A stretch of 64,000 nucleotides of DNA from an uncultured Chloroflexus sp. (GTDB taxonomy: Bacteria > Chloroflexota > Chloroflexia > Chloroflexales > Chloroflexaceae), in NCBI RefSeq assembly GCF_937129525.1, contig NZ_CAKZNK010000087.1, forward strand, positions 1 to 64,000, written 5' to 3'. Made by a program: the position numbers and the translations under genes. The notes below the pieces were generated by a model, which was given only the letters and a program-made list of their open reading frames with translations, was not told where the DNA came from and ran no database searches. Position 1 is the first letter of the stretch, and every line of letters begins with the position of its first letter. Of the stretch, positions 2,461 through 52,076 are shown one piece after another.

Positions 2461-3939
2461 ATGAAATCGTTCAAATTCACACTCCTGGGCCTGATGCTCA
2501 TGTTTGCCACCCTGATCACTGCTTGCGGTAGCGGAACGACAACCCCATCTGCCCAACCAACCAGTGCGCCTGCGCCAACCGAGGCCGCTCAGGTACGTCA
2601 GCCAACCCAGGCGCCGGCACCGGCGCAAACTGATCGTATCAAGGTGCGCTGGTTCGTTGGTCTGGGGGCCGGTTCTGATGAGGGCGCTATTCCAGCCCAG
2701 AACGCCTTCGTTGAACGCTTTAATGCCAGCCAGGATAAGATCGAACTGGTGATCGAGATTGTCGATAACAATGTCGCTTACGATACGCTGGCCACTCAGA
2801 TTGCTGCCGGTAACGCTCCCTGCCTGGTTGGTCCGGTCGGTATTCGCGGTCGTGACAGCTTCAAAGGCGCGTGGCTTGACTTGCAGCCGCTGATCGACAA
2901 ATACAACTATGATCTGAGCGACTTTGACCCCAATCTGGTCAAGTTCTATCAGGTGAAAGAAGAGGGTCAGCTTGGCATTCCGTTCGCGATCTTCCCCTCA
3001 TTCATCATCTACAACAAGGATCTGTTCGACGAAGCGGGCCTGCCCTATCCACCAGCCACCCATGGCGCGCCGTGGGTCGATGAAAACGGGGTTGAGCGAC
3101 CGTGGAACATGGAAACCCTCACCGAACTGGCAAAGAAGCTGACCGTCGATGTCAATGGGAACGATGCTACTTCGCCTGATTTCGACCCGGAAAAGATCGT
3201 GCAGTTCGGTTGGATGAACCAGTGGACCGACCCGCGCGGCATTGGCACCTTCTTTGGCGCCGGCTCGCTGGTTGACGAGAATGGCAACGCTCAGATTCCT
3301 GACCATTGGAAGGCGGCCTGGAAGTGGACTTACGATGGCTGGTGGAAAGACTGGTTCATTCCGAATGGCCCTTACGGTGGCGCAGACTTCCTGCAAGGAC
3401 CCGGTGGCCCCTTCTCGTCCGGTAATCTGGCAATGATCCACATTCATATGTGGTACGTCGCGCCGTGGGCATTGGGGAATGTTGACTTCGATTGGAATCT
3501 GGCTGCCACTCCCAGCTACAACGGCACTATCACGGCCAAGATGCATGCCGACACCTTCGGTATCCTCAAAGGGTGCCCCTATCCCGATGCTGCATTCGAA
3601 GTGCTCACCTACATGCTGAGCGCCGAGCACGTTAATGAACTGCTCACGATTTACGGTGGCATGCCGGCCCGCCTGTCATTGCAGAATGACTACTTCCAGC
3701 AGTACAATCAGACCGCCTTCCCCAACAAGAGTGATCTCAACTGGAACGTAGTGGTCGAAGCGATGGCATATGCCGATAATCCCAATCACGAAAGCTGGAT
3801 GCCTAGCTTCCAGGAAACAACTGACCGCTACAACGAATTCTGGAACTATCTGGCGAATACACCTGACGCCGACTTCGAGGCTGAAGTCGCCAGGCTGAAG
3901 GACGATTTGCAGAAGATTTTTGACGCAGCAAACAAGTAG
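2461..3939 (+). CDS. Sugar ABC transporter substrate-binding lipoprotein
   Basis: A 492-residue family-1 solute-binding protein. The N-terminus has a lipoprotein signal ending LITAC (Cys about residue 22) and a Pro/Thr-rich tether, followed by the SBP fold (SFKGAWLDLQPLID, PFAIFPSFIIYNKDLFDEAGLPYP). It is preceded by a strong Shine-Dalgarno, GAGGAGG. It would be anchored at the outer face of the membrane and deliver oligosaccharides to the two permeases encoded next. Context with GH3 and GH16 enzymes points to beta-glucan oligosaccharides. No ATPase gene is in the operon, so a shared MsiK-like ATPase elsewhere is likely. Confidence 0.9.
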   Translation: MKSFKFTLLGLMLMFATLITACGSGTTTPSAQPTSAPAPTEAAQVRQPTQAPAPAQTDRIKVRWFVGLGAGSDEGAIPAQNAFVERFNASQDKIELVIEIVDNNVAYDTLATQIAAGNAPCLVGPVGIRGRDSFKGAWLDLQPLIDKYNYDLSDFDPNLVKFYQVKEEGQLGIPFAIFPSFIIYNKDLFDEAGLPYPPATHGAPWVDENGVERPWNMETLTELAKKLTVDVNGNDATSPDFDPEKIVQFGWMNQWTDPRGIGTFFGAGSLVDENGNAQIPDHWKAAWKWTYDGWWKDWFIPNGPYGGADFLQGPGGPFSSGNLAMIHIHMWYVAPWALGNVDFDWNLAATPSYNGTITAKMHADTFGILKGCPYPDAAFEVLTYMLSAEHVNELLTIYGGMPARLSLQNDYFQQYNQTAFPNKSDLNWNVVVEAMAYADNPNHESWMPSFQETTDRYNEFWNYLANTPDADFEAEVARLKDDLQKIFDAANK

Positions 3940-3951
3940 GAGCAATGACCG

Positions 3952-3988
3952 ATCGGCAGCCCTGCGCCGTTTACACAGGGCTGCCGAT
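3952..3988 (+). promoter_or_regulatory. Intercistronic stem-loop between binding protein and permease
   Basis: A perfect 13-bp stem (3952-3964 with 3976-3988) around an 11-nt loop lies 12 bp after the binding-protein stop and ends just before the permease Shine-Dalgarno. There is no T-run. In maltose-type operons such hairpins protect the upstream mRNA from 3' exonucleases and raise binding-protein output over permease. That role is inferred here. Confidence 0.65.
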
Positions 3989-4005
3989 TGACAAGGAGGT
4001 CGGCG

Positions 4006-4995
4006 ATGGCGCCTTTACCAGAATTCGGTGGCATCCTCCGGCGCGGTTTAGCCAAACCGCAGCGACGAAAACTGAGCAAGCTAGAAAAGAAAGAGATCAG
4101 TTGGGGACTATTCTTTATCAGCCCGTGGATGATCGGATTTCTTCTCTTCTATTTGCTGCCGATGATTGCGTCGTTTGGCTTTTCGCTCTACGATTTCAAT
4201 CCGGCTGTCCCTGATCAGGCTCGCTTTGTCGGTTTAGCCAACTGGGAACGCGCTCTGTTCAATGATCAAGAGGTCTGGCTCTCGTTGGGCCGAACCATCC
4301 ACTTTGCGGCCATTTCGTTGCCGATTTCGCTCCTGTTTGCGCTCTTTCTGGCCGTTTTGCTCAATTCTGAGCATGTGCTGGGCAAAAGTGTGTACCGCAC
4401 CCTCTTCTACATGCCGACGATGATCCCATTGGTGGCTACTGTCTTGATATGGAATGGAGTGCTGAACGATCAGACAGGTTGGATTAACGTTATCATCGAG
4501 CGGCTGACCGGGATTCGGGCCACCGGCACGCAGGGCTTGCGCTGGCTGGCCGACCCTAATCTGGTCTACTACGCCTACACAATGTTTGGATTGTGGGGTG
4601 TTGGGAATGCGATGATCATCTTTCTGGCCGGCCTGCAAGGCGTGCCTACCGAACTGTACGAAGCAGCTCAAATCGACGGCGCCAACTGGTTCCACCGCCT
4701 CTTCTTCATCACCATTCCGTTGATCACACCGGTGATCTTCTACCAGCTTGTGTTGGGAGTGATCGGTTCGCTGCAATATTTTCTGGCCCCCTTTGTGCTC
4801 AACGGCGGCACCGGTTTCCCTGAGGGCATGACCCGGTTTTTCATGATCTACTTCTACAAGCAGTCGTTTACCTTCTTCAATATGGGCTATGGCGCAACGC
4901 TGGCATGGTTGATGCTGTTCATCGCCATGGTGATCACGATTGTCCTCTTTGGCACCTCGCGGTTCTGGGTCTTCTACGCAGGGGAGGAACGGTGA
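4006..4995 (+). CDS. Sugar ABC transporter permease (MalF type)
   Basis: A 329-residue inner-membrane permease with about six membrane segments and the EAA loop (ELYEAAQIDGANWFHRLFFITIPLITP) that docks the ATPase. The ORF track starts at a TTG inside the hairpin. The ATG at 4006, with AAGGAGGT 5 nt upstream, is the better start. The stop overlaps the next permease start by one base (TGATG), so the two are probably translationally coupled. Substrate is inferred from the neighbouring glucanases. Confidence 0.92.
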   Translation: MAPLPEFGGILRRGLAKPQRRKLSKLEKKEISWGLFFISPWMIGFLLFYLLPMIASFGFSLYDFNPAVPDQARFVGLANWERALFNDQEVWLSLGRTIHFAAISLPISLLFALFLAVLLNSEHVLGKSVYRTLFYMPTMIPLVATVLIWNGVLNDQTGWINVIIERLTGIRATGTQGLRWLADPNLVYYAYTMFGLWGVGNAMIIFLAGLQGVPTELYEAAQIDGANWFHRLFFITIPLITPVIFYQLVLGVIGSLQYFLAPFVLNGGTGFPEGMTRFFMIYFYKQSFTFFNMGYGATLAWLMLFIAMVITIVLFGTSRFWVFYAGEER

Positions 4996-6066: not shown

Positions 6067-7917
6067 ATGCGATGGCGACTGCTCTGCCTGATCGGATTGG
6101 GGTTGTTCATTGTCGGCGCTTGTGGAGCGCCTGCCGCGCCTCCAATTGCAACCGCAGTGGTCAATCAGGCTGCCACGATGTCGATTGCCGAACGGGTTGA
6201 GGCACTCTTGCAGCGAATGACCCTGGCCGAAAAGATCGGGCAAATGACCTTGATCGAGAAGAATAGCCTGACTCCCGATCAGGTGCGGGAACTGGCGATC
6301 GGTGGCATACTCAGTGGCGGAGGTGGTTACCCAACCACCGAAAATTCACCGCAAGCCTGGGCAGCGATGGTGAACACCTTTCAGCAGGCTGCGCTTGAAA
6401 GTCGACTCGGCATTCCGATCATCTATGGCGCCGATGGCGTTCACGGGCATAACAATCTCTATGGCGCGGTAATTTTTCCGCACAATATCGGGTTGGGGGC
6501 CGCCAATGATCCATTGCTGATGGAGCAAATCGGACGGGTGACCGCGATTGAAATGGCAGCCACCGGCGTCTTGTGGAATTATGCGCCCGGGGTGATGGTG
6601 CCGCAAGATGTGCGATGGGGCCGCGCTTACGAAGGGTATGCCGAGCGGCCCGACCACGTGGCAACGCTGGCCAGCGCCTTTCTACGCGGGTTGCAGGCTG
6701 CCGATGTGGTGGCGCCGCAACGGGTGATCGGCACTCCCAAGCACTTTCTGGGCGATGGCGGCACAGCCTGGGGATCGTCGAAGACCGAAAACTATGCGCT
6801 TGATCAGGGAGAAACCATCGGTGATGAGGCATGGCTGCGGGCAGTGCATCTCCCCCCGTACCAGGCAGTGATCGATGCAGGAGCGCAGGTAGTCATGGCC
6901 TCCTATTCGAGCTGGCAGGGAACAAAGATGCACGCCAGCTCTTACTGGCTGACCGAAGTGCTCAAGGGCGAAATGGGGTTCACCGGCTTTATCGTCTCTG
7001 ACTGGGCCGCGATTGATCAGATCGACCCTGATTATTATCGCGCAGTTGTGACCGCAATTAATGCCGGCATCGATATGAACATGGTTCCCTACGATGCCCG
7101 GCGCTTTATCGATACGCTGACCCGAGCAGTTCAGGCCGGTGAAGTGAGCGAGGAGCGGATCAATGACGCAGTGCGACGGATTCTCACCGTCAAGATGACG
7201 ATGGGACTCTTTGAACATCCCTTCGCTGCGACCGAATTGATCGGGCAGATCGGCAGCCCCGCTCACCGCGAGCTAGCGCGCACAGCCGTGGCTAAATCGC
7301 TCGTCTTGTTGAAGAATGAGCAGCAGTTGCTCCCGCTCGCCAAATCGATCCCACACCTTTTCATCGGGGGCCAGGCGGCCAATGACCCCGGTATGCAGGC
7401 TGGCGGCTGGACAATTGAATGGCAGGGCAAAACCGGCCCGATTATTCCGGCGACGACGATTCTGGAAGGCATTCAGGCCGCCGTTGCGCCGCAGACGGTG
7501 GTGGAATATGACCGCTACGGGCGGTTTAGCGGTGATCCAGGCGCCGATGATGCGGTTTGCATCGCGGTCGTGGGCGAATTACCCTACGCGGAAGGCCGGG
7601 GCGATAGCGCTCAACTTAGCCTGCCACCAACTGAACAGCGCGCGTTGCAGCGAATGGAAGAAGCCTGCGCGCGCCTGGTGGTTGTGCTGGTCACCGGTAG
7701 ACCATTGCTGATCACCGATTCGTTGCCGAAATGGGATGCGCTGGTTGTAGCCTGGCTGCCGGGGAGTGAGGGGGCCGGCGTTGCCGATGTGTTGTTTGGA
7801 GATCGCCCGTTTACCGGCAGACTGCCAGTGACCTGGCCACGCAGTCTCGATCAGCTCCCACTGGGGAGCGGCACCGGCGAGCCGCTCTTTCCGTATGGGT
7901 TTGGCTTGCAACCGTAG
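6067..7917 (+). CDS. Glycoside hydrolase family 3, lipoprotein (beta-glucosidase/exo-glucanase type)
   Basis: A 616-residue enzyme with a lipoprotein signal (LFIVGAC) when started at the ATG 7 bp after the permease stop. GH3 N-domain motifs include KIGQMTLIEK, IPIIYGADGVHGH, TPKHFLGDGGT and GFIVSDWAAID, whose Asp (about residue 312) is the expected nucleophile. The C-domain (KSLVLLKNEQQLLPL) follows. The KHFLGDGGT version is typical of exo-beta-1,3/1,4-glucanases of the barley ExoI type. As a surface lipoprotein it would trim glucan chains or oligosaccharides outside the cell. Exact linkage preference cannot be read from sequence. Confidence 0.92.
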   Translation: MRWRLLCLIGLGLFIVGACGAPAAPPIATAVVNQAATMSIAERVEALLQRMTLAEKIGQMTLIEKNSLTPDQVRELAIGGILSGGGGYPTTENSPQAWAAMVNTFQQAALESRLGIPIIYGADGVHGHNNLYGAVIFPHNIGLGAANDPLLMEQIGRVTAIEMAATGVLWNYAPGVMVPQDVRWGRAYEGYAERPDHVATLASAFLRGLQAADVVAPQRVIGTPKHFLGDGGTAWGSSKTENYALDQGETIGDEAWLRAVHLPPYQAVIDAGAQVVMASYSSWQGTKMHASSYWLTEVLKGEMGFTGFIVSDWAAIDQIDPDYYRAVVTAINAGIDMNMVPYDARRFIDTLTRAVQAGEVSEERINDAVRRILTVKMTMGLFEHPFAATELIGQIGSPAHRELARTAVAKSLVLLKNEQQLLPLAKSIPHLFIGGQAANDPGMQAGGWTIEWQGKTGPIIPATTILEGIQAAVAPQTVVEYDRYGRFSGDPGADDAVCIAVVGELPYAEGRGDSAQLSLPPTEQRALQRMEEACARLVVVLVTGRPLLITDSLPKWDALVVAWLPGSEGAGVADVLFGDRPFTGRLPVTWPRSLDQLPLGSGTGEPLFPYGFGLQP

Positions 7918-8077
7918 GGCAGGATTGCCCGGAGCGCTGCGCCAGAGTACCCGATCGAGTACCCCTCATGTTTCCGCTAGACGAGGGGATCGATGCTCAG
8001 GTGATAGACGAAGTGCTGTCATTGAACGCCTTGCCGCCGAACTTGATCTGATCAGCACAGGGAGAAGGTGAAGGACT

Positions 8078-8914
8078 GTGAGAGTACGTATGACCGAACG
8101 GATTATCCGTCGCTGCTGCCAGTGCTGGTTGGCGCTCCTGGCGCTGACCGGATGCACAACGACGCCTGCGGCGTCGATTGCCCCCGAACCTCAACCAACT
8201 CCATCGCCGTGGACGTTGGTTTGGAGTGATGAATTTGACGGCGAGACTCTCAATCCACGAAACTGGTTGTTTGACAAGGGCGCTGGCGGTTGGGGAAACA
8301 ACGAATGGCAATTCTACACCGACCGGCCAGAAAACATTCGGATTGAGAACGGTGTCTTGATCATTGAAGCGCGTAAGGAGGAATACCTGGCCTGGGAATA
8401 CACCTCAGCCCGTATCAAAACCCACTACCTGCACTCGTGGGCGTATGGGCGGATCGAGGCGCGGATCAAGTTACCGCCCGGAGGCAAGGGTATCTGGCCT
8501 GCCTTCTGGATGTTAGGCGAGAACATTGCCACAGCCCGCTGGCCGGCGTGTGGCGAGATCGACATCATGGAGAACATCGGTAATCCAACGGTTGTTTACG
8601 GCACCGTACACGGGCCAGGCTATTCTGGCGGCAATGCCATCTCGCAATCGTTTACCAGCCCGGTCTCGCTGGCCGATAATTTCCACCTTTACGCGGTGGA
8701 ATGGGAAGCCGACGAAATTCGCTGGTACGTCGATGATCAACTCTACCACACCGTTCGGCGTGATCAAACGCCAGGCGAGTGGGTCTTCGATCATCCCTTC
8801 TTTATCTTGATCAATCTGGCGGTTGGCGGGAACTGGCCGGGGTATCCCGACGAGACAACCGTCTTTCCGCAACAGCTTCAGATCGACTACGTGCGGGTCT
8901 ATCAGCAGAGCTAA
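8078..8914 (+). CDS. Glycoside hydrolase family 16 lipoprotein (laminarinase/lichenase type)
   Basis: A 278-residue endo-glucanase. Signal and lipobox end LALTGC, then comes a GH16 jelly roll starting WTLVWSDEFDGE. The catalytic signature EIDIMENIG fits ExDxxE (nucleophile about residue 159, acid/base about 164), and the extra Met is usual in endo-beta-1,3-glucanases. GTG at 8078 has a GAAGGA box close by, with ATG at 8090 as an alternative start. It would cleave laminarin or mixed-linkage glucan at the cell surface and feed the GH3 enzymes and importer. Confidence 0.92.
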   Translation: MRVRMTERIIRRCCQCWLALLALTGCTTTPAASIAPEPQPTPSPWTLVWSDEFDGETLNPRNWLFDKGAGGWGNNEWQFYTDRPENIRIENGVLIIEARKEEYLAWEYTSARIKTHYLHSWAYGRIEARIKLPPGGKGIWPAFWMLGENIATARWPACGEIDIMENIGNPTVVYGTVHGPGYSGGNAISQSFTSPVSLADNFHLYAVEWEADEIRWYVDDQLYHTVRRDQTPGEWVFDHPFFILINLAVGGNWPGYPDETTVFPQQLQIDYVRVYQQS

Positions 8915-9017
8915 TCAGGCCGGAGGGAGCTGACGGTTTTCCGCACCTCACCTCCAGTCAGGTCAATTTGCAAGAGTTGGTCAAGTCATCACGCAGAGCA
9001 CAGGTAAAGGACACAGT

Positions 9018-11474
9018 ATGCTTCATCATGACACCGAAACAATCGACTCCCTGCTCACCCAACTAACCATCGAGGAGAAGATCGCGCTGATCGCCGGCGC
9101 TGATGCCTGGCACACCGTTGCCATCCCACGCCTGGGCATACCGGCCATCAAAGTCACCGATGGCCCCAATGGCGCCCGCGGTGTGAGCCGCAACGGCGCC
9201 CATACCTCGGCCTGCTTCCCGATTGGGGTGGCAATGGGAGCGACGTGGAATCCGTCCCTGGTGCGTCAGATCGGCGAAGCGCTGGCCGAAGAGACCAGAG
9301 ACAAAGGCGCGCATATCTTGCTCGCGCCGACGGTCAACATCCATCGCTCACCGCTGGCGGGACGCAACTTTGAGTGCTTCTCGGAAGATCCCTACCTGAC
9401 CGGCACTATGGCAATTGCGTACATCACCGGGTTGCAAAGTCGTGGCGTTGGCGCATGCATCAAACATTTCGTCTGCAACGACTCAGAATTCGAGCGGTTT
9501 AGCATCAGCTCTGATGTCGGTGAACGACCGCTGCGAGAAATCTATCTGCGCCCATTCGAGATGGCAATTCGGCAAGCCAAACCCTGGACAATCATGTCGG
9601 CTTACAACCGGATCAACGGCGTCTGGGCCAGCGAAAACCACCGGCTCCTGGTCGAGATTCTCAAAGGTGAATGGCAATTCGATGGCCTGGTGATGTCTGA
9701 CTGGTACGGAACGTACAGCGAGCGCGCAATCAGCAACGGTCTCGATCTTGAGATGCCGGGGCCGGCGCGCTGGCTCAGCCGGGAACGGGTACTGGCAGCG
9801 CTTGAGCGCGGCGAGTTGCGTGAAGCCGAGCTTGATGACAAGGTACGCCGACTGTTGCGCGCGATCGAGCGGGTAGGCGGCTTTGAACGGCCAGCGCCTG
9901 CTGCTGAACAGGCCAATGATCGGCCCGAACACCGCGCGCTGATCCGCCGCGCTGGTGTCGAGTCAATCGTGCTGCTGAAGAACCAGGCCAATCTCTTGCC
10001 CCTCCAGACCGAACGGCTCCAAACCATTGCCGTGATCGGAGCTAACGCGCATTGGGCAGCGATTATGGGTGGTGGTAGCTCGGAAGTTGCGCCGCACTAC
10101 GTGGTAACGCCCTTGCAGGGTATTCGCAATCGCGCCGGCAGTCATTGTCGCGTTGAGTATGCCATCGGCACGCCTATCTTCCGCCGCTTACCTCATCTGG
10201 ATCCGGCCTGGCTGCAATTACCTGATAGTGATCGAAGCGGGGTACAGCTCGATTACTTCGCCGATCTGGATTTCGATAGCGCGCCACTGCGCACCGATAC
10301 GCTGAATACCCTGGAAGCAAGCTGGTTTGGCGATCGGATTGAATATCTAGACCTTACCACCTTTGCCACCAGACTAAGCTGCGATCTGTTGCCACCGCAT
10401 ACCGGAACTTACCAGTTGGGGTTGTCGTGTATCGGCCAGGCTCGCATCTGGCTCGATGGCGAACTGGCGCTTGATCGGTGGCACAAAGAGGTTATGGATG
10501 GCAACGAACAGCGCCAGACGATCACGCTGGAAGCTGGACGCCGTTACCGGCTGGTCGTCGAATTTCGCTGGCCGGTTGCCGGTAACTGGCGAGGGCTGCA
10601 AGTGGGGCTATGGCCGGAAAGCGACCGCGACCCGATTGAAGAGGCTGTCGAACTGGCCAGCCGGAGCGATGTGGCGATTGTCTTTGCCGGTCTGACCAAG
10701 GAATGGGAGAGCGAAGGCTTCGATCGCAGCGATATGGAGCTGCCAGGACGGCAGAACGAATTGATTCGACGGGTAGCGGCAGCCAATCCCCGCACAATCG
10801 TTGCGCTCAACGCCGGCTCACCGCTCAGCATGCCGTGGCTTAATGACGTTGGGGCCGTGGTACTGGCGTGGTACGGCGGTCAAGAGGCTGGCAACGCCAT
10901 TGCCGACGTACTGTTTGGCGATGCCGATCCGGGTGGACGCCTGCCGACCACCTTCCCCAGGCGGCTGGCCGACAACCCGGCCTATATCAACTATCCTGGC
11001 GAAAACGGTCACGTGTTGTACGGCGAAGGGTTATTTGTTGGCTACCGTTACTACGACCGGAAAGGAATTGAACCGCTCTTCCCGTTTGGCTTCGGACTGA
11101 GTTACACCGACTTCGCATACAGCAACCTGCGCCTCTCAGCCAACGCTATGCGCGCCGACGAAACGATCACCGTCAGCGTTGATGTCACCAACAAGGGAAC
11201 GCGCGCCGGGATGGAGGTGGTACAGCTCTACATTCACGACCAGGCAGCCCGGTTGATGCGACCCGACAAAGAACTGAAAGGCTTTTCCAAAGTAGCCCTA
11301 CAGCCAGGTGAGACAACGACCATCACCTTTACGATTGACCGACAGGCGCTCAGCTACTACGATCCGGCGGCGCCGGGTTGGGTGGCCGAACCGGGTGGGT
11401 TTACCGTTCTGATCGGTCGCTCAGCGGCTGACATTCGGTTGCAAGCGCAGTTTGAATTACTGAGCAGCGAATGA
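9018..11474 (+). CDS. Glycoside hydrolase family 3 beta-glucosidase, cytoplasmic, with inserted PA14-like domain
   Basis: An 818-residue enzyme without a signal peptide. GH3 N-domain: VTDGPNGARG, CIKHFVCNDSEFER and LVMSDWYGTYS (nucleophile Asp about residue 228). A PA14-like beta domain lies within the second domain (about 385-530, TGTYQLGLSCIGQARIWLDGE), and an FnIII-like tail ends the protein. AAAGGA precedes the ATG. This architecture is common for beta-glucosidases that act on imported oligosaccharides, which fits its place last in an operon with an importer and complements the exported GH3. Confidence 0.92.
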   Translation: MLHHDTETIDSLLTQLTIEEKIALIAGADAWHTVAIPRLGIPAIKVTDGPNGARGVSRNGAHTSACFPIGVAMGATWNPSLVRQIGEALAEETRDKGAHILLAPTVNIHRSPLAGRNFECFSEDPYLTGTMAIAYITGLQSRGVGACIKHFVCNDSEFERFSISSDVGERPLREIYLRPFEMAIRQAKPWTIMSAYNRINGVWASENHRLLVEILKGEWQFDGLVMSDWYGTYSERAISNGLDLEMPGPARWLSRERVLAALERGELREAELDDKVRRLLRAIERVGGFERPAPAAEQANDRPEHRALIRRAGVESIVLLKNQANLLPLQTERLQTIAVIGANAHWAAIMGGGSSEVAPHYVVTPLQGIRNRAGSHCRVEYAIGTPIFRRLPHLDPAWLQLPDSDRSGVQLDYFADLDFDSAPLRTDTLNTLEASWFGDRIEYLDLTTFATRLSCDLLPPHTGTYQLGLSCIGQARIWLDGELALDRWHKEVMDGNEQRQTITLEAGRRYRLVVEFRWPVAGNWRGLQVGLWPESDRDPIEEAVELASRSDVAIVFAGLTKEWESEGFDRSDMELPGRQNELIRRVAAANPRTIVALNAGSPLSMPWLNDVGAVVLAWYGGQEAGNAIADVLFGDADPGGRLPTTFPRRLADNPAYINYPGENGHVLYGEGLFVGYRYYDRKGIEPLFPFGFGLSYTDFAYSNLRLSANAMRADETITVSVDVTNKGTRAGMEVVQLYIHDQAARLMRPDKELKGFSKVALQPGETTTITFTIDRQALSYYDPAAPGWVAEPGGFTVLIGRSAADIRLQAQFELLSSE

Positions 11475-46518: not shown

Positions 46519-47100
46519 CTAGCCATTTGACAACTGGTGGGTCAACAAGATCGCCTGGGCCACTTCCCGCATCGTCTTGCGGTTACGCATCGCCATTTGC
46601 TGAATCCGGCGAAACGCCTCGGCCTCAGTCAAACCGTGTTGTTCCATCAACACACCCTTTGCCTGCTCGATCTCTTTGCGTGTCTCAATCCGGTCACGCA
46701 ACGCCATCACCTCATTGCGACGCGCCTGATACATCTGCCAGCGCGCCAGGGTCACTTCGATCAAGGGCATCAACTCAGCATCGCGAAACGGTTTGATCAG
46801 ATAGCCAAACACACCGGCCATCCGCGCGCGCGCAGCCAGGTCTCGCGAAGCCGACGCGGTCAGCAAAATCACCGGCGCCACCTCCTCGTGGCACAGGATA
46901 GTTGCCGCTTCCAATCCATCAAGCTGCGGCATTTTGTAGTCAAGCAAGACCAGATCGGGGCGAAGCTGACGCGCCATCACAACCGCTTGCTGCCCATCTG
47001 CTGCTTCGCCAACAATCAGATAACCGAGCGACTGCAACGTTTCGCGTAGATGCATTCGAATCAGCGATTCATCATCAGCAATCAAGAGTCGCGCTGCCAT
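46519..47100 (-). CDS. Response regulator with ANTAR RNA-binding domain
   Basis: 193 residues. Receiver (RLLIADDESLIRMHL, Asp in LVLLDYKMPQLDG, Thr in LLTASAS, Lys in LIKPFRD), then a short coiled coil and an ANTAR domain (RIETRKEIEQAKGVLMEQHGLTEAEAFRRIQQMAMRNRKTMREVAQAIL). ANTAR proteins bind paired hairpins in leader RNA and block termination when phosphorylated. No cognate histidine kinase and no obvious dual-hexaloop target is in the window. Confidence 0.93.
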   Translation of the reverse strand: MAARLLIADDESLIRMHLRETLQSLGYLIVGEAADGQQAVVMARQLRPDLVLLDYKMPQLDGLEAATILCHEEVAPVILLTASASRDLAARARMAGVFGYLIKPFRDAELMPLIEVTLARWQMYQARRNEVMALRDRIETRKEIEQAKGVLMEQHGLTEAEAFRRIQQMAMRNRKTMREVAQAILLTHQLSNG

Positions 47101-47659
47101 GCGTGCTCCAAAAAAGAATAAGCACCCGCCGCCGCAACAGTGCGACGCGCAGGTGGCATCAATGCGAATAGTATCGATGTAATTTCAGTATACGTAAACA
47201 GAGCAGTACATGCTATGGTTGAATTGCACAATGTGTTATGGATAGGAGTAATAGAAAACGCTGCGCATCAATCGACGATGCCAGCGCAACTCCTGCTCTG
47301 TGAGCGCGCTACCCTCACCATCTCCCTGCTCGTACCGACTGCTACGCGGCGAGTTGACAAACAATGCCTGGCGAAGACTTCCTGATGCGGAAACTGCTGG
47401 TGGAAACGCTTGAGCAGATCAACGAGGGAGGTAGCCGGTCATCGTCACCCGCGACGCGCAACCGGGCGCGCTCCGCTTTAAGGAAGCCGCATGCGACCAG
47501 CGCCGGGATACAGCAGTACACCATCGCCGTCGCGCTCATCCGCCGATACTAATCGAGGCTCGAACAGTTCCCTGGTGTCGGCAACCAGCGCCGCGATGGC
47601 CCGGCGCGGACAGAAATGAACGAGACTGTGCAGTATGCGCCGAGAAATTTCCCAATGCA
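47101..47659. other. Region upstream of the ANTAR gene, no convincing gene
   Basis: About 560 bp. The small track ORFs (47140-47385, 47342-47539, 47364-47552, 47478-47660) have no recognisable domain. A few stretches look protein-like on either strand (LMRKLLVETLEQINEGG plus; AIAALVADTRELFEPRLVSADERDG minus) and may be debris from deleted genes. It borders the accessory island. Confidence 0.35.
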
Positions 47660-47833
47660 ATCGGAAGACCCTTAACTGCTCAGTTCGTAGAGGATAATAC
47701 TATCGCGTTAGTTGAATTCGTGTTGACAGAAGAGGGTGTAAGGGTTTCCTCGGAAAGACATTATCGTTTAGTGTCTCTCGATGACCTTTCAGAAGAGGAG
47801 ATTAAAGAATACAACCGACATCGCTTAACTTAA
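47660..47833 (+). pseudogene. C-terminal fragment of an unrecognised protein
   Basis: An open frame without a plausible start ends at TAA 47831-47833. It reads through FVEDNTIALVEFVLTEEG and RHYRLVSLDDLSEEEIKEYN, which has credible amphipathic composition. It is not in the ORF track because it lacks a start codon. I do not recognise the family. Its end lies 17 bp before the type ISP remnant but in another frame, so it is probably a separate remnant. Confidence 0.35.
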
Positions 47834-47850
47834 TCTTGCAATAATGGATA

Positions 47851-47970
47851 GATTATCATTTTCCCCTCTACCTCTACCCCGAAGCCGAGCGCAAAGACCT
47901 CTTTAGCGACCAGGAGCCGCAGGGGCGCCGGCCAAATCTGAAACCAGACCTGCTCGCGGTGCTGCAAAAG
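47851..47970 (+). pseudogene. Fragment of type ISP restriction-modification enzyme, upstream piece
   Basis: After a TAA at 47842-47844 the frame reads DYHFPLYLYPEAERKDLFSD and GRRPNLKPDLLAVLQKAY. FPLYLYP...RRPNL is the conserved lead-in to the C-terminal target-recognition domain of type ISP (single-chain helicase-methylase-nuclease) restriction enzymes. The nuclease, helicase and methylase parts are missing, so this is a remnant. The matching continuation reappears after about 490 bp, at VTPEQVFHYIYAVLYAPTYR. Confidence 0.65.
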
Positions 47971-48001
47971 GCGTATACTTCCTCCCCCCAGCCCCCTCCC
48001 C

Positions 48002-48073
48002 GCGAGCCGTATAACCCCACCCCCGCACCCCCTCCTCGCGAGCCAGATAACCCCACCCCCACACCCCTCCCCA
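48002..48073 (+). repeat. 36-bp C-rich tandem repeat (two copies)
   Basis: Copies at 48002-48037 and 48038-48073 begin GCGAGCC and share the ATAACCCCACCCCC core with few mismatches; a third begins with CGAGC. The top strand is almost free of G in long tracts, so the bottom strand has G-runs that could form quadruplexes. Confidence 0.8.
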
Positions 48074-48095
48074 CGAGCGGGGAGGGGTGTGGGGG
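48056..48095. repeat. 17-bp perfect inverted repeat next to the DUF559 ORF
   Basis: 48056-48072 pairs perfectly with 48079-48095 around the loop ACGAGC. The arm is (C)5-ACACCCCTCCCC. It lies exactly where the DUF559 ORF becomes open, and marks the left part of the inserted segment. Confidence 0.85.
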
Positions 48096-48983
48096 GAGGG
48101 GTCTTGGCGTACCCCGCCGCACCTCTGGGAAAAACTCAAGCCCCTCGCCCAGGAGATGCGTCGGCATCCCACACCTGCGGAGAAGATGTTGTGGCAACAC
48201 CTGCGGGATAAGCAACTCTTGGGATACAAATTCCGGCGTCAGCACACCATTGGGCGCTTCATTGTGGATTTCTATTGCCGGGATGCAGGGCTGGTCATTG
48301 AGGTGGATGGGCCTATTCATCAATATACCGCAGAGGAAGACGCAATCCGCCAGGAGTTCCTGGAACGTCAGGGATTGCGCGTATTGCGTTTTACCAACGA
48401 CCAGGTCTTCACCGACCTAACGAGTGTGCTGGCCGCCATTGGCCGGGCCTTGAAAGAATCGTCGGTCTCCGTTACTCCGGAGCAGGTCTTCCATTACATC
48501 TACGCCGTGCTATACGCCCCAACCTATCGGGAGAAATACGCCGACTTCCTGCGCCGGGACTTCCCCCGCATCCCCTTCCCCGCCGACCCTGAACTCTTTG
48601 CGGAGCTGGCCGCCCTGGGCAAGAAACTGGTCGCCCTGCACCTGCTCCGTTCGCCCGACCACGATCCGCCCCTCGCCCACTTTGAGGGGACGGGGGATAA
48701 CCGCGTGGTCAACGTCGCCTACGACGCGGCAGCGAAGAAAGTCTCGATCAACGAGACCCAGTACTTTGCGCCGGTTGCCCCAGACGTGTGGGAGTACACC
48801 ATCGGCGGTTACCAGGTGTGTGAGAAATGGCTCAAAGACCGCCGGGGCCGGTCACTCACCCTGGACGACATCCGCGCCTACTGCCGCATCGTCACCGCCC
48901 TGGCGCGCACAATGGAGATTCAGGCGGAGATTGACAAGCTGTATCCGCGCGTGGAGCAAACGCTGCTATCTCTGAAAACCTGA
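48087..48983 (+). CDS. DUF559 endonuclease fused in frame to the type ISP C-terminal domain
   Basis: 298 residues from a GTG (start uncertain; an ATG at MRRHPTPAEK is possible). About 10-125: DUF559/Vsr-like nuclease (MRRHPTPAEKMLWQHLRD, YKFRRQHTIGRFIVDFYC, LVIEVDGPIHQY, RVLRFTNDQV). About 130-295: type ISP C-terminal domain (VTPEQVFHYIYAVLYAPTYREKY, FPRIPFP, GYQVCEKWLKDRRGR, YCRIVTALARTMEIQ). The nuclease has no own stop and reads into the restriction-enzyme tail, so it looks inserted into that gene. Whether the fusion is expressed or active is unknown. Confidence 0.75.
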   Translation: MWGEGSWRTPPHLWEKLKPLAQEMRRHPTPAEKMLWQHLRDKQLLGYKFRRQHTIGRFIVDFYCRDAGLVIEVDGPIHQYTAEEDAIRQEFLERQGLRVLRFTNDQVFTDLTSVLAAIGRALKESSVSVTPEQVFHYIYAVLYAPTYREKYADFLRRDFPRIPFPADPELFAELAALGKKLVALHLLRSPDHDPPLAHFEGTGDNRVVNVAYDAAAKKVSINETQYFAPVAPDVWEYTIGGYQVCEKWLKDRRGRSLTLDDIRAYCRIVTALARTMEIQAEIDKLYPRVEQTLLSLKT

Positions 48984-49341
48984 GCAGGATTGCCATTGCC
49001 CAACATGCCCATCCAGCCGACACGCTCCGCTTGCTGCGCTTGCTTCGCGCGCGACTGATGCCCAGCCTGGAGTATCGAGCAGCAGGCAATGTCAGCAGCG
49101 AGAGGTGAAAGGCTCGGCGAAAGGTGCAGGTACGCCAGGCTCTCAAGTTCGGCAGGACTATGGCGCAGCGCTTGCCATGGCCGGCCTGTGACGACGGTGA
49201 ACGGTTAGCGGGTGTTTTGGTAATAGTGTTGTGCTACCGTTGTGCTACAGTCATTGCGGAGTATGACAATATCGTTTGCGCTTTGCCAGAAGTGATAGGC
49301 GGGCTTGCAGACGGTGGGGTTTTGCTCCAGTCCGCATTGGC
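48984..49341. other. Gap between the restriction remnant and the first attC site
   Basis: 358 bp without a convincing ORF; the 79-residue track ORF at 49124-49363 lacks recognisable features. GACGGTGAACGGTTAGCG near 49193-49210 resembles the right half of another attC site, but I cannot find a matching left half. Confidence 0.35.
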
Positions 49342-49402
49342 ACCCAACAAGCGATTCACCTGACGCCGCTGCGCGGCGCAGATGGAGCATATGCCGTTAG
49401 CC
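49342..49402 (+). other. attC-like integron recombination site A
   Basis: About 61 bp. Left core ACCCAAC (49342-49348, fits RYYYAAC), then AAGCGATTCACCTGACGCCG leading into an inner palindrome GCCGC/GCGGC, and right core GTTAGCC (49396-49402, cut point G/TT). The cassette boundary after this G starts with TTAGCCCGCTT, which is mirrored in site B. R'/R'' pairing within site A is imperfect. Confidence 0.65.
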
Positions 49403-49422
49403 CGCTTATTTTAAGAAGACAT

Positions 49423-50118
49423 ATGATGTGTCGATTTTTTTCTGCGTTGTTTTTATTAGCATTGCTGGTAGTAATAAGCGGCTGCGGCTCCGCATACCCT
49501 GAACCTACTGAAATTAGCAGGAATACCATTGTGTATGAGATGAGATTATCCGCCTCAACAATGGTGGAGGCAAAGGAGACACAGACCAAATAGTAGCAAG
49601 AGATGTTGCAACAACTATTGAGTTTGGAGCAGGAATTGCTGCTGGATTTAAGTCCGTTGTAGAAGGAGCCATTTCTGCAAAGTACAGTGCGTATAGCAAC
49701 ACTTCAAAGAGTATCCGTGTAGTTGCACCCCCTGGAACGAATATGGAGTTTGTTTTGCGCTGGTTCTATGATGTGCGGGCCGGCAATGTGCAAATCAACG
49801 TACAGACCACGACATACGAAGTCCGAATACCGATTTCGGTCGAACAGATCTCAGCCCGAGATAGGGGTTGTTAAATATTGCCCTCTTAACCTACACAGAG
49901 CGCCAGCGCAGTCCATACTACTTCACGACCATACTTTACAAACTGACGGCTCATTTCGCGAGCACAAGTTAACGCCAATTGCAAGTACAGGAATCATAGC
50001 CCAGGGGACATATTGTGGCGGAATAGCCCCATTTGACGAAACAGAAACCTCGCAAAATCTTAATATTCAGCAAATAAGACTTGAAGAAATTTCAAATAGA
50101 TGTAACCACTATCCTTAA
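49423..50118 (+). pseudogene. AT-rich lipoprotein gene with frameshifts, integron cassette 1
   Basis: It starts MMCRFFSALFLLALLVVISGCGSAYPEP, a clear lipoprotein signal. After TIVYE the frame must change near 49535-49545 to continue as EIIRLNNGGGKGDTDQIVAR and GTNMEFVLRWFYDVRAGNVQ, stopping at 49874. A return to the first frame near 49850 continues as EIGVVKYCPLNL and TGIIAQGTYCGGIAPFDETE to 50118. Further coding-like scraps reach about 50270 (EKHGYVFDMHINTGDKKFF). Much more AT-rich than its neighbours. Family unknown. Sequencing error at two sites is an alternative to decay. Confidence 0.6.
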
Positions 50119-50350
50119 CATAGAAAAATCTAACTTTTCTTCTATAAAGACATCGCTATCCATAAAAAAGTTTTTAGAACAACAAACAAATCAATAGAGA
50201 AACATGGTTATGTTTTTGATATGCATATCAATACAGGAGACAAAAAATTTTTTAACACACTTTGAACCATCAAAATCCATATAGTTTTAGATCTAGACTT
50301 ATATTATCATTGTGATAGTTACTGCTATCTTGGCAACTGCAAATAATATC

Positions 50351-50427
50351 AAGCGGGCTAACTCTCACTTGCGCCTGACACCGCCGCGCTACGCTTCGCG
50401 GCACGGATGAAACGCAAGCGGTTAGGC
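50351..50427 (+). other. attC-like integron recombination site B
   Basis: About 77 bp: left end AAGCGGGCTAAC (50351-50362), CACTTGCG pairing with CGCAAGCG, an inner CGCCGCG/CGCGGC palindrome, and right core GTTAGGC (50421-50427, fits GTTRRRY). The left end is the exact reverse complement of GTTAGCCCGCTT at the start of the same cassette (49396-49407), as expected for a cassette that passed through a circular form. Confidence 0.75.
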
Positions 50428-50483
50428 GCCAGAGAGTGTTTGGCGTCAAGACATACCATCTCAGCGTATTGAGGTGTACAGGT

Positions 50484-50759
50484 ATGAAACTGTTGAAGCG
50501 AATTTTCAGATCTCAGGAAAACAATCTTGTTGTCTGTTTTCGAGTTCAGAACTATGCAGAGATGTGCCAGCGCGACGCAAAAGCAATCCTGAAACTAGAG
50601 CACAATCTTGTAGAATCAGGAGCAATTTCTGCCAAAATTGACGTTCCATCAAAACTCTGTTGCGTAACAATTACGGATCCAACCGTGAAGCCCGAAGACA
50701 TCCGGCAAGTATTGGAAACGCTCGGCTCCCGCGTTATGCCCGAAATCAGGGAGGCGTAA
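50484..50759 (+). CDS. Small HMA-like protein, integron cassette 2
   Basis: 91 residues from MKLLKRIFRSQENN (GAGG upstream); the ORF track start at 50436 is a GTG close to the cassette edge. VVCFRVQN, SAKIDVPSKLCCVTITD and VKPEDIRQVLETLGSRVMPE follow the beta-alpha-beta pattern of heavy-metal-associated domains, but the CxxC metal site is not kept (AEMCQRDAK has one Cys). It lies 57 bp after attC site B, where a cassette gene would start. No attC is visible downstream. Confidence 0.6.
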   Translation: MKLLKRIFRSQENNLVVCFRVQNYAEMCQRDAKAILKLEHNLVESGAISAKIDVPSKLCCVTITDPTVKPEDIRQVLETLGSRVMPEIREA

Positions 50760-51005
50760 ATTGACATGAGCAAGCTTACCCGTAAGACTTTTTGAAGATA
50801 GGGCAGCAAACCCGGCAAGCCTCACTGCCAACCAATGCTTCCCCCCGACTCACCCACTACAACCTGCGACCGTTCTTGCCGTCCCGACTACCATAGACCA
50901 GTCAGCGGAACTTCTGTATTTGACTGGCGAGTAATCAGCCGCTCAGATCGAATGAGATTAATAGCGCTCTCGCTCGCGAGAGCATGAACACGCAGGAACT
51001 CTCGA

Positions 51006-52076
51006 TCAGGGATTAACGCCATGACCGGCGGTGATGTGGCTGAGGTCGATTGTGCCACCGCGCAACACAAAACCGCCTGAGAAGGGATTTTCAGCCAGAA
51101 AGAGCGGTGTATCGAGATCGACAAAGCGGAAGCCACCCAGACCGGCAGCAACATGCGCTGACATAGTCATCGCGAGAATCGATTCAACCATCCCGCCAAT
51201 CATCAGTCCTAATCCGGCAGCGCGCGCAATTGCCGCAATCTCTAACGCTTCCACCACCCCGGTCTTCATCAACTTAATATTGATCACTTGAGCTGCCCGC
51301 TCAAACGCAATCCGCAACACATGTGCCGCGCTGGAAGCCGTCTCATCGGCAGCAATCGGCACGCCGCTCCACCGCGCCAACTGCCGCATCCCTTCCCAAT
51401 CGTCAGCCGGTACCGGTTGTTCAACCAGAGCCGGCACAATCTGCTGCAGGCATAACGCTCCCAGCAACTCCAGTGTCGTCTCGGCGGTCAATCCGCCATT
51501 GCCGTCGAGAATCAACGGCGCGTCGGGTGCCACCGCCCGGATCGCTGTAATGCGCGCCAGATCGTGTTGTAGATCACTGCCGCCGATCTTAACCTTGATC
51601 TGGCGAATACCACGGTCAAGAATATCGAGCGCAGCCAGTGCCGCTTCCTCTACCGTACCGGTGGTGATGGTCATATCGGTTTCCAGCGTTTGGCCGGCGC
51701 CACCGAAGAAGACGTACAGCGGGATACCGTAGTGGCGCGTCAGCGCATCGAGCACTGCCGTCTCGATGGCGCAACGAGCCGATCCGCTTGCCCCGATCCG
51801 CTCGCGCAACAGGTCGGCAATCGCTCGCCACTCGCGCGCGTCTGCCCCTTCAATTGCCGTTCGCACCGACTCGATTGCCGCTTGTGCTCCGGCCTGCGTC
51901 TCGCCGTTGAAAGCGGGGAAAGGAGCAGCCTCACCGTAGCCCCGCACCCCATTTGCGAGTTCCACCGTAACCAGCAAATTACGGGCGATCTCCTGCGCGC
52001 CACCGGCAATGCCAAACGGACTGCGCAGCGGAATATCGAGCGGAGCGACATCGAGCGCGCGGATCACGGTATCCAT
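51006..52076 (-). CDS. Dipeptide epimerase (enolase superfamily, L-Ala-D/L-Glu type)
   Basis: 356 residues. KVKIG (Lys-x-Lys acid/base), metal ligands Asp in LILDGNGG, Glu in ALVEQPV and Asp in IAADET, and the opposite Lys in VINIKLMKTGG-like NIKLMKTG are all present, with C-terminal DLDTPLFLAENPF typical of dipeptide epimerases. Likely epimerises L-Ala-D-Glu from recycled peptidoglycan, though other dipeptides are possible. Its start lies 42 bp after the permease gene stop on the same strand. Confidence 0.9.
   Translation of the reverse strand: MDTVIRALDVAPLDIPLRSPFGIAGGAQEIARNLLVTVELANGVRGYGEAAPFPAFNGETQAGAQAAIESVRTAIEGADAREWRAIADLLRERIGASGSARCAIETAVLDALTRHYGIPLYVFFGGAGQTLETDMTITTGTVEEAALAALDILDRGIRQIKVKIGGSDLQHDLARITAIRAVAPDAPLILDGNGGLTAETTLELLGALCLQQIVPALVEQPVPADDWEGMRQLARWSGVPIAADETASSAAHVLRIAFERAAQVINIKLMKTGVVEALEIAAIARAAGLGLMIGGMVESILAMTMSAHVAAGLGGFRFVDLDTPLFLAENPFSGGFVLRGGTIDLSHITAGHGVNP

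Follow-up and report, generated by a model that had tools for sequence, protein, structure and literature searches.

Clusters of attC sites lacking integron integrases (CALINs) are recognized by two or more attC sites less than 4 kb apart, with no integron integrase gene nearby. The average CALIN holds almost six attC sites (PMC9024848), and three origins have been proposed for such clusters, off-target insertion among them (PMC8618304). Chloroflexota (Chloroflexi) are listed among the integron-bearing phyla (PMC2426708, PMC8618304, PMC9668308); within literature coverage that was incomplete, we found no paper on the integrons of Chloroflexus or Roseiflexus themselves.

The window (the whole 64-kb stretch of DNA that was analysed) resembles a CALIN in carrying three co-oriented attC sites and one complete cassette without intI, and differs from the average one in being smaller and visibly decayed. 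We are very confident that the element is a CALIN in decay. An earlier note on this DNA had proposed CALIN-like cassettes without an integrase, and that proposal holds: the attC sites share one orientation, the genome has no detectable IntI, and homologous cassettes occur in integron arrays, one of them beside intI.

Three attC sites in one orientation

A strict scan for the attC consensus failed to recover even established class 1 sites. A looser scan took its place, followed by a covariance model, R1. The model was built from 26 attC sites with the window excluded from training: 22 come from Chloroflexota arrays with integron integrase genes or their remnants, chosen through TIGR02249 matches, and 4 from plasmid class 1 integrons. 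R1 is home-made and is not the model of IntegronFinder, and its E-values are rough.

Over the whole window, R1 gave exactly three matches up to an E-value of 10, all on the plus strand, with starts at 48998, 49342 and 50356 (spaced 344 and 1014 bp) and thus well within the distance that defines a CALIN. Site 1 (48998–49072; 27.5 bits, E = 4e-5) retains its left end, the R'' box GCCCAAC, and has lost the GTT of its right end. Site 2 (49342–49402; 33.3 bits, E = 1e-6) runs from ACCCAAC to GTTAGCC, and site 3 (50356–50427; 38.1 bits, E = 5e-8), the best preserved, from GGCTAAC to GTTAGGC. Sites 2 and 3 have the expected architecture of R' and R'' boxes (GTTRRRY and RYYYAAC), paired L boxes and extrahelical bases, and both keep the GTT of R' and the AAC of R''. 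The R' box of site 2 and the R'' box of site 3 each lie one base off the consensus, as is common in intI-bearing arrays of Chloroflexota.

Sites 2 and 3 are those that the earlier note had placed, as sites A and B, around an AT-rich segment; R1 supports both as real, and the outer coordinates given for the pair, 49342–50427, are exact. The count of two has to be raised by the decayed site 1. No covariance hit at all, the outcome named in advance as counting against cassettes, is not what we observed.

The search for further attC sites recommended at the time was extended to the whole 4.48-Mb assembly, in which the three window sites are the top three R1 matches and only one more reaches E ≤ 1. 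This weak solo match lies on the minus strand of another contig (C69:4924–4982; 25.6 bits; locus L095 of genome G000), directly after the end of an open reading frame and before a ParA-like one, and is possibly a single attC elsewhere in the same genome.

Integrase genes in the genome and the genus

The absence of an integrase, first remarked on for the window, extends to the genome: a search of the 4.48-Mb draft (157 contigs) gave no TIGR02249 match over the cut-off. The best IntI-like protein, on contig C117, is a XerD, scoring 320 bits as XerD against 107 bits as IntI. In a draft of this kind, an intI gene hidden in a gap is still conceivable. No attI was recognized in the window, in a search made without an attI model; a complete integron would have both intI and attI, and this genome yields no IntI.

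In the phylum as sampled, by contrast, IntI proteins over the curated cut-off occur in 43 of 400 Chloroflexota genomes. That figure, together with integrons already published (PMC2426708, PMC8618304, PMC9668308), leaves the statement that cassettes are rarely described in this phylum only partly fair.

Within the genus, every intI copy that we found is broken. The copies in two congeners (G230 and G078) are frameshifted or truncated, and the other congeners, with G400 lying outside the sample, gave no intI at E ≤ 1e-40. Five of the eight genomes in the genus have attC sites at a per-genome E ≤ 1e-3, with about 21 in G230 (presumably C. aggregans), 6 in G110 (presumably C. aurantiacus), 3 in G078, 2 in G126 and 2 in the genome studied here.

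The broken integrase genes lie at 7498–9463 of locus L036 and at 3702–4551 and 8150–9022 of L037, both in G230, and at 651–1411 of L038 in G078. In L036, two broken intI genes stand in tandem. attC clusters nonetheless persist in these congeners. Elsewhere in the sample, a segment beside intI in L052 (10729–10807) is similar in sequence to one that precedes the first cassette of L059 (about 2000–2110); the pair is likely to represent the attI of a Chloroflexota integron lineage.

Extra DNA at the locus and its possible origins

The array lies between a response regulator gene (46522–47100, minus strand) and a gene (51009–52076, minus strand) whose product we take to be an enolase-superfamily (dipeptide epimerase-like) protein. 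The two genes adjoin each other in all six congeners examined, with gaps of 165–240 bp against 3.9 kb here. As they are direct neighbours in the six congeners, about 3.7 kb (47256–51005) is extra in this genome. Nucleotide homology with the congeners ends at 47233–47251 and restarts at 51015–51016; since the intergenic sequence varies, the exact ends of the insert can be placed only to within tens of bases.

Upstream of the first attC, the leftmost 1.7 kb of this extra sequence is not cassette-like. It contains an open reading frame (48087–48983, plus strand) in which a DUF559 domain (PF04480) is fused to the C-terminal portion of a Type ISP specificity domain (PF18135); a congener encodes the two in a single 1198-aa frame, separated by additional protein sequence. 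The window frame is probably a remnant with an internal deletion. No attC adjoins its homologues, and for that reason it is probably not a cassette. Just before it, at 47969–48106, are three or so tandem C-rich repeats of 35–36 nt with inverted partners.

One account of how the array arose is that an integrase acting in trans placed the cassettes at a non-classical attG site, so that no integron platform was ever present here. Off-target insertion is one of the three proposed CALIN origins (PMC8618304), and insertion at attG has been reported (Loot et al. 2024, as cited in PMC12444791). In its favour, the two flanking genes stand side by side in the six congeners, whose empty sites have no attC above background, none at E below 0.2. 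Against it, the extra DNA includes 1.7 kb of non-cassette sequence to the left of the first attC, and no clean cassette-to-chromosome junction was found; the data would fit equally well if the array had arrived within a longer foreign segment or if intI had been lost locally. We regard insertion in trans as a tentative possibility for the origin of the CALIN. An integrase in trans, a larger foreign piece and an integron that lost intI are all origins of kinds already proposed (PMC8618304), and each of them may apply here.

A decayed lipoprotein cassette with mirrored ends

The complete cassette of the CALIN spans 1025 bp between recombination points (49397–50421, plus strand), ends at the GTT of sites 2 and 3 and includes its own attC. 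The AT-rich segment within it carries a broken lipoprotein gene (49438–50343, plus strand), delimited by tblastn with the 310-aa protein of a homologous cassette on a Chloroflexota metagenome-assembled contig (L099, from SKW140). The alignment of that protein covers the full length of the window cassette, split into three pieces over two frames and with internal stops, which marks the segment as a decayed, full-length copy of a cassette lipoprotein gene of about 310 codons. The reading frame changes near 49539 and at 49931–49939, and in-frame stops include the one at 49872–49874 and several after 50100. Nucleotide identity between the two cassettes is 72.9% over 849 nt.

Intact relatives of the lipoprotein have about 270–350 aa, with a conserved N-terminal domain and a C-terminal part that varies. 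Pfam and NCBIfam gave no match for the cassette proteins. An AlphaFold model of the intact 310-aa relative, predicted with a mean pLDDT of 54 (about 60–78 for residues 21–150 taken alone), is too poor to use.

As long as a cassette is circular, the two arms of its attC, left and right, are adjacent. Insertion by recombination between the G and the TT of GTTRRRY separates them, so that one is found where the cassette starts and the other where it ends. A cassette should consequently begin with a sequence that pairs with the left arm of its attC. As the earlier note had observed, the window cassette starts with GTTAGCCCGCTT (49396–49407), the exact reverse complement of AAGCGGGCTAAC at its end (50351–50362), and the two 12-mers coincide with the recombination ends of the 1025-bp cassette. 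No other copy of the 12-mer with up to one mismatch occurs in the window, where shuffled sequence predicts 0.18; with up to two mismatches there are 7 matches against 4.6 expected.

As a control we took 37 other cassettes from intI-bearing or related arrays. Their starts pair with the ends of their own attC over a mean run of 7.5 nt, and 3 of the 37 reach the 12 nt seen in the window; starts and ends drawn from different cassettes pair over a mean of 4.3 nt, with 2 of 1482 combinations reaching 12. Because own ends pair over 7.5 nt against 4.3 nt between cassettes, the mirror is more than chance, and the claim that circular insertion predicts such a mirror and that chance would hardly produce it is borne out by this control and by the shuffles.

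Some features fit the CALIN reading less well: site 1 has lost its right end, the cassette assigned to it (49073–49395) lacks both a convincing gene and a mirror, and the upstream 1.7 kb of extra DNA does not resemble a cassette. A further cassette boundary considered at GTTAGCGGGTG (about 49203) was dropped, as R1 found no attC to its left. After site 3, a 91-aa open reading frame (50484–50759, plus strand) starts about 60 nt beyond the recombination point; it matched no family and no homologue in 400 Chloroflexota genomes, and R1 detected no attC downstream of it. It probably belongs to a next cassette that has lost its attC.

Homologous cassettes in other Chloroflexota

The closest counterpart in an integrase-bearing array is a chromosomal integron (L043) in a genome of the same order (G158, which we take to be probably Roseiflexus sp. 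RS-1). Its first cassette, adjoining an intact intI reading frame, encodes a protein 68% identical over 109 residues to the window product, and starts with GTTAGCCCGCT and ends with AGCGGGCTAAC, the same ends as in the window. The attC sequences are also similar. That integron, however, has at least six attC sites and an intact integrase frame, whereas the window lacks intI and its cassette gene is not intact.

A scan of contigs for the cassette protein found seven relatives. Four of them (L099, L100, L098 and L103) have attC on one or both sides, and L101, L102 and L104 have no attC sites. The L099 cassette and that on another Chloroflexota metagenome contig (L100, from 630D.37) start with GTTAGCCCGC and end with GCGGGCTAAC, near-identical to the window ends, and share the C-terminal part of the window copy. 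L098 belongs to the same lipoprotein family, with other ends and another C-terminal part; in all three the reading frames are intact, unlike that of the window. L103 matches L059 of genome G120, a more distant homologue with a different mirrored pair, GTTGGGTGCT and AGCACCCAAC, followed by attC.

L098 is a short contig labelled as Synechococcales (MAG M55_K2018_004); over the N-terminal part, its protein is closer to the cassette protein (77%) than any other homologue found. Its presence in a cyanobacterial bin reflects either a binning error or cassette transfer between phyla. A plasmid of Ca. Chlorohelix allophototropha gave a match of 42% over residues 102–309, among annotated genes, and viral contigs contained no homologue of the cassette protein.

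The inverted 12-mers bound a 967-bp AT-rich segment, much as the terminal repeats of an insertion sequence or of a MITE with a passenger gene would bound a small transposable element. This reading is very improbable: both here and in the homologous cassettes the ends coincide exactly with recombination points of attC, the lipoprotein gene accounts for the segment and there is no transposase, and no long inverted repeats were found to bound the extra DNA. What rules it out is the homologous cassette ending in GTTGGGTGCT and AGCACCCAAC, whose ends differ from those of the window while remaining complementary to each other, so that no fixed terminal repeat exists.

The case for the window attC sites rests on R1, on their setting in an array and on the existence of homologous cassettes. 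Across 72 R1 hits, stem positions covary, with 86.7% of cells paired against 71.6% after shuffling and a covariation score of 0.365 against 0.122, in an alignment that was itself fitted to the structure. In the proposed check by folding, the bottom strand folds slightly better than the top strand, but with z of about -1.1 to -1.3 for the bottom strand against shuffles the folding energy by itself is unimpressive and does not separate the window sites from shuffled sequence. An Rfam search of the whole window returned no family match. Folding energies that beat shuffles by no more than about 1 standard deviation might suggest GC-rich hairpins, such as terminators or other palindromic repeats, that resemble attC by chance. 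This is scarcely credible, since R1 gives three co-oriented matches within 1.5 kb and a single one in the rest of the genome, and since the 12-nt mirror and the presence of homologous cassettes next to attC speak against it.

Proposed loss of the integrase and decay of the array

We propose that an IntI, now absent from the genome, placed the array here by recombining circular cassettes through the folded bottom strand of attC, which would have left co-oriented cassettes that each end in attC. The stem of a cassette's attC would have been split when the circle opened between the G and the TT of GTTRRRY, so that one half came to form the cassette start and its partner the left arm of the terminal attC, giving the 12-nt mirror. 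After loss of the integrase, the lipoprotein gene would have been frameshifted, the first attC would have lost its right end and the last cassette would have been left without attC. The array is judged to be decaying because its cassette gene is a broken copy, and it presumably no longer moves.

A broader picture would join three parts: a genus that is an integron graveyard, in which attC sites persist and every intI is broken or gone; cassettes that an integrase in trans planted here at a new site in the chromosome; and a modular lipoprotein, with a constant N-terminal domain and a changing C-terminal part, common to Chloroflexota families. We consider this combination unlikely as a whole.

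The element is real but of a known kind, a CALIN remnant with intact cassette relatives in the same phylum. It provides firm evidence of attC sites and a cassette in what is probably a Chloroflexus genome, and shows the same cassette in different families of Chloroflexota. Where arrays have decayed, the mirror can serve to verify the boundaries of cassettes. The locus is also a further case in which integrase loss and cassette decay are visible side by side among congeners.
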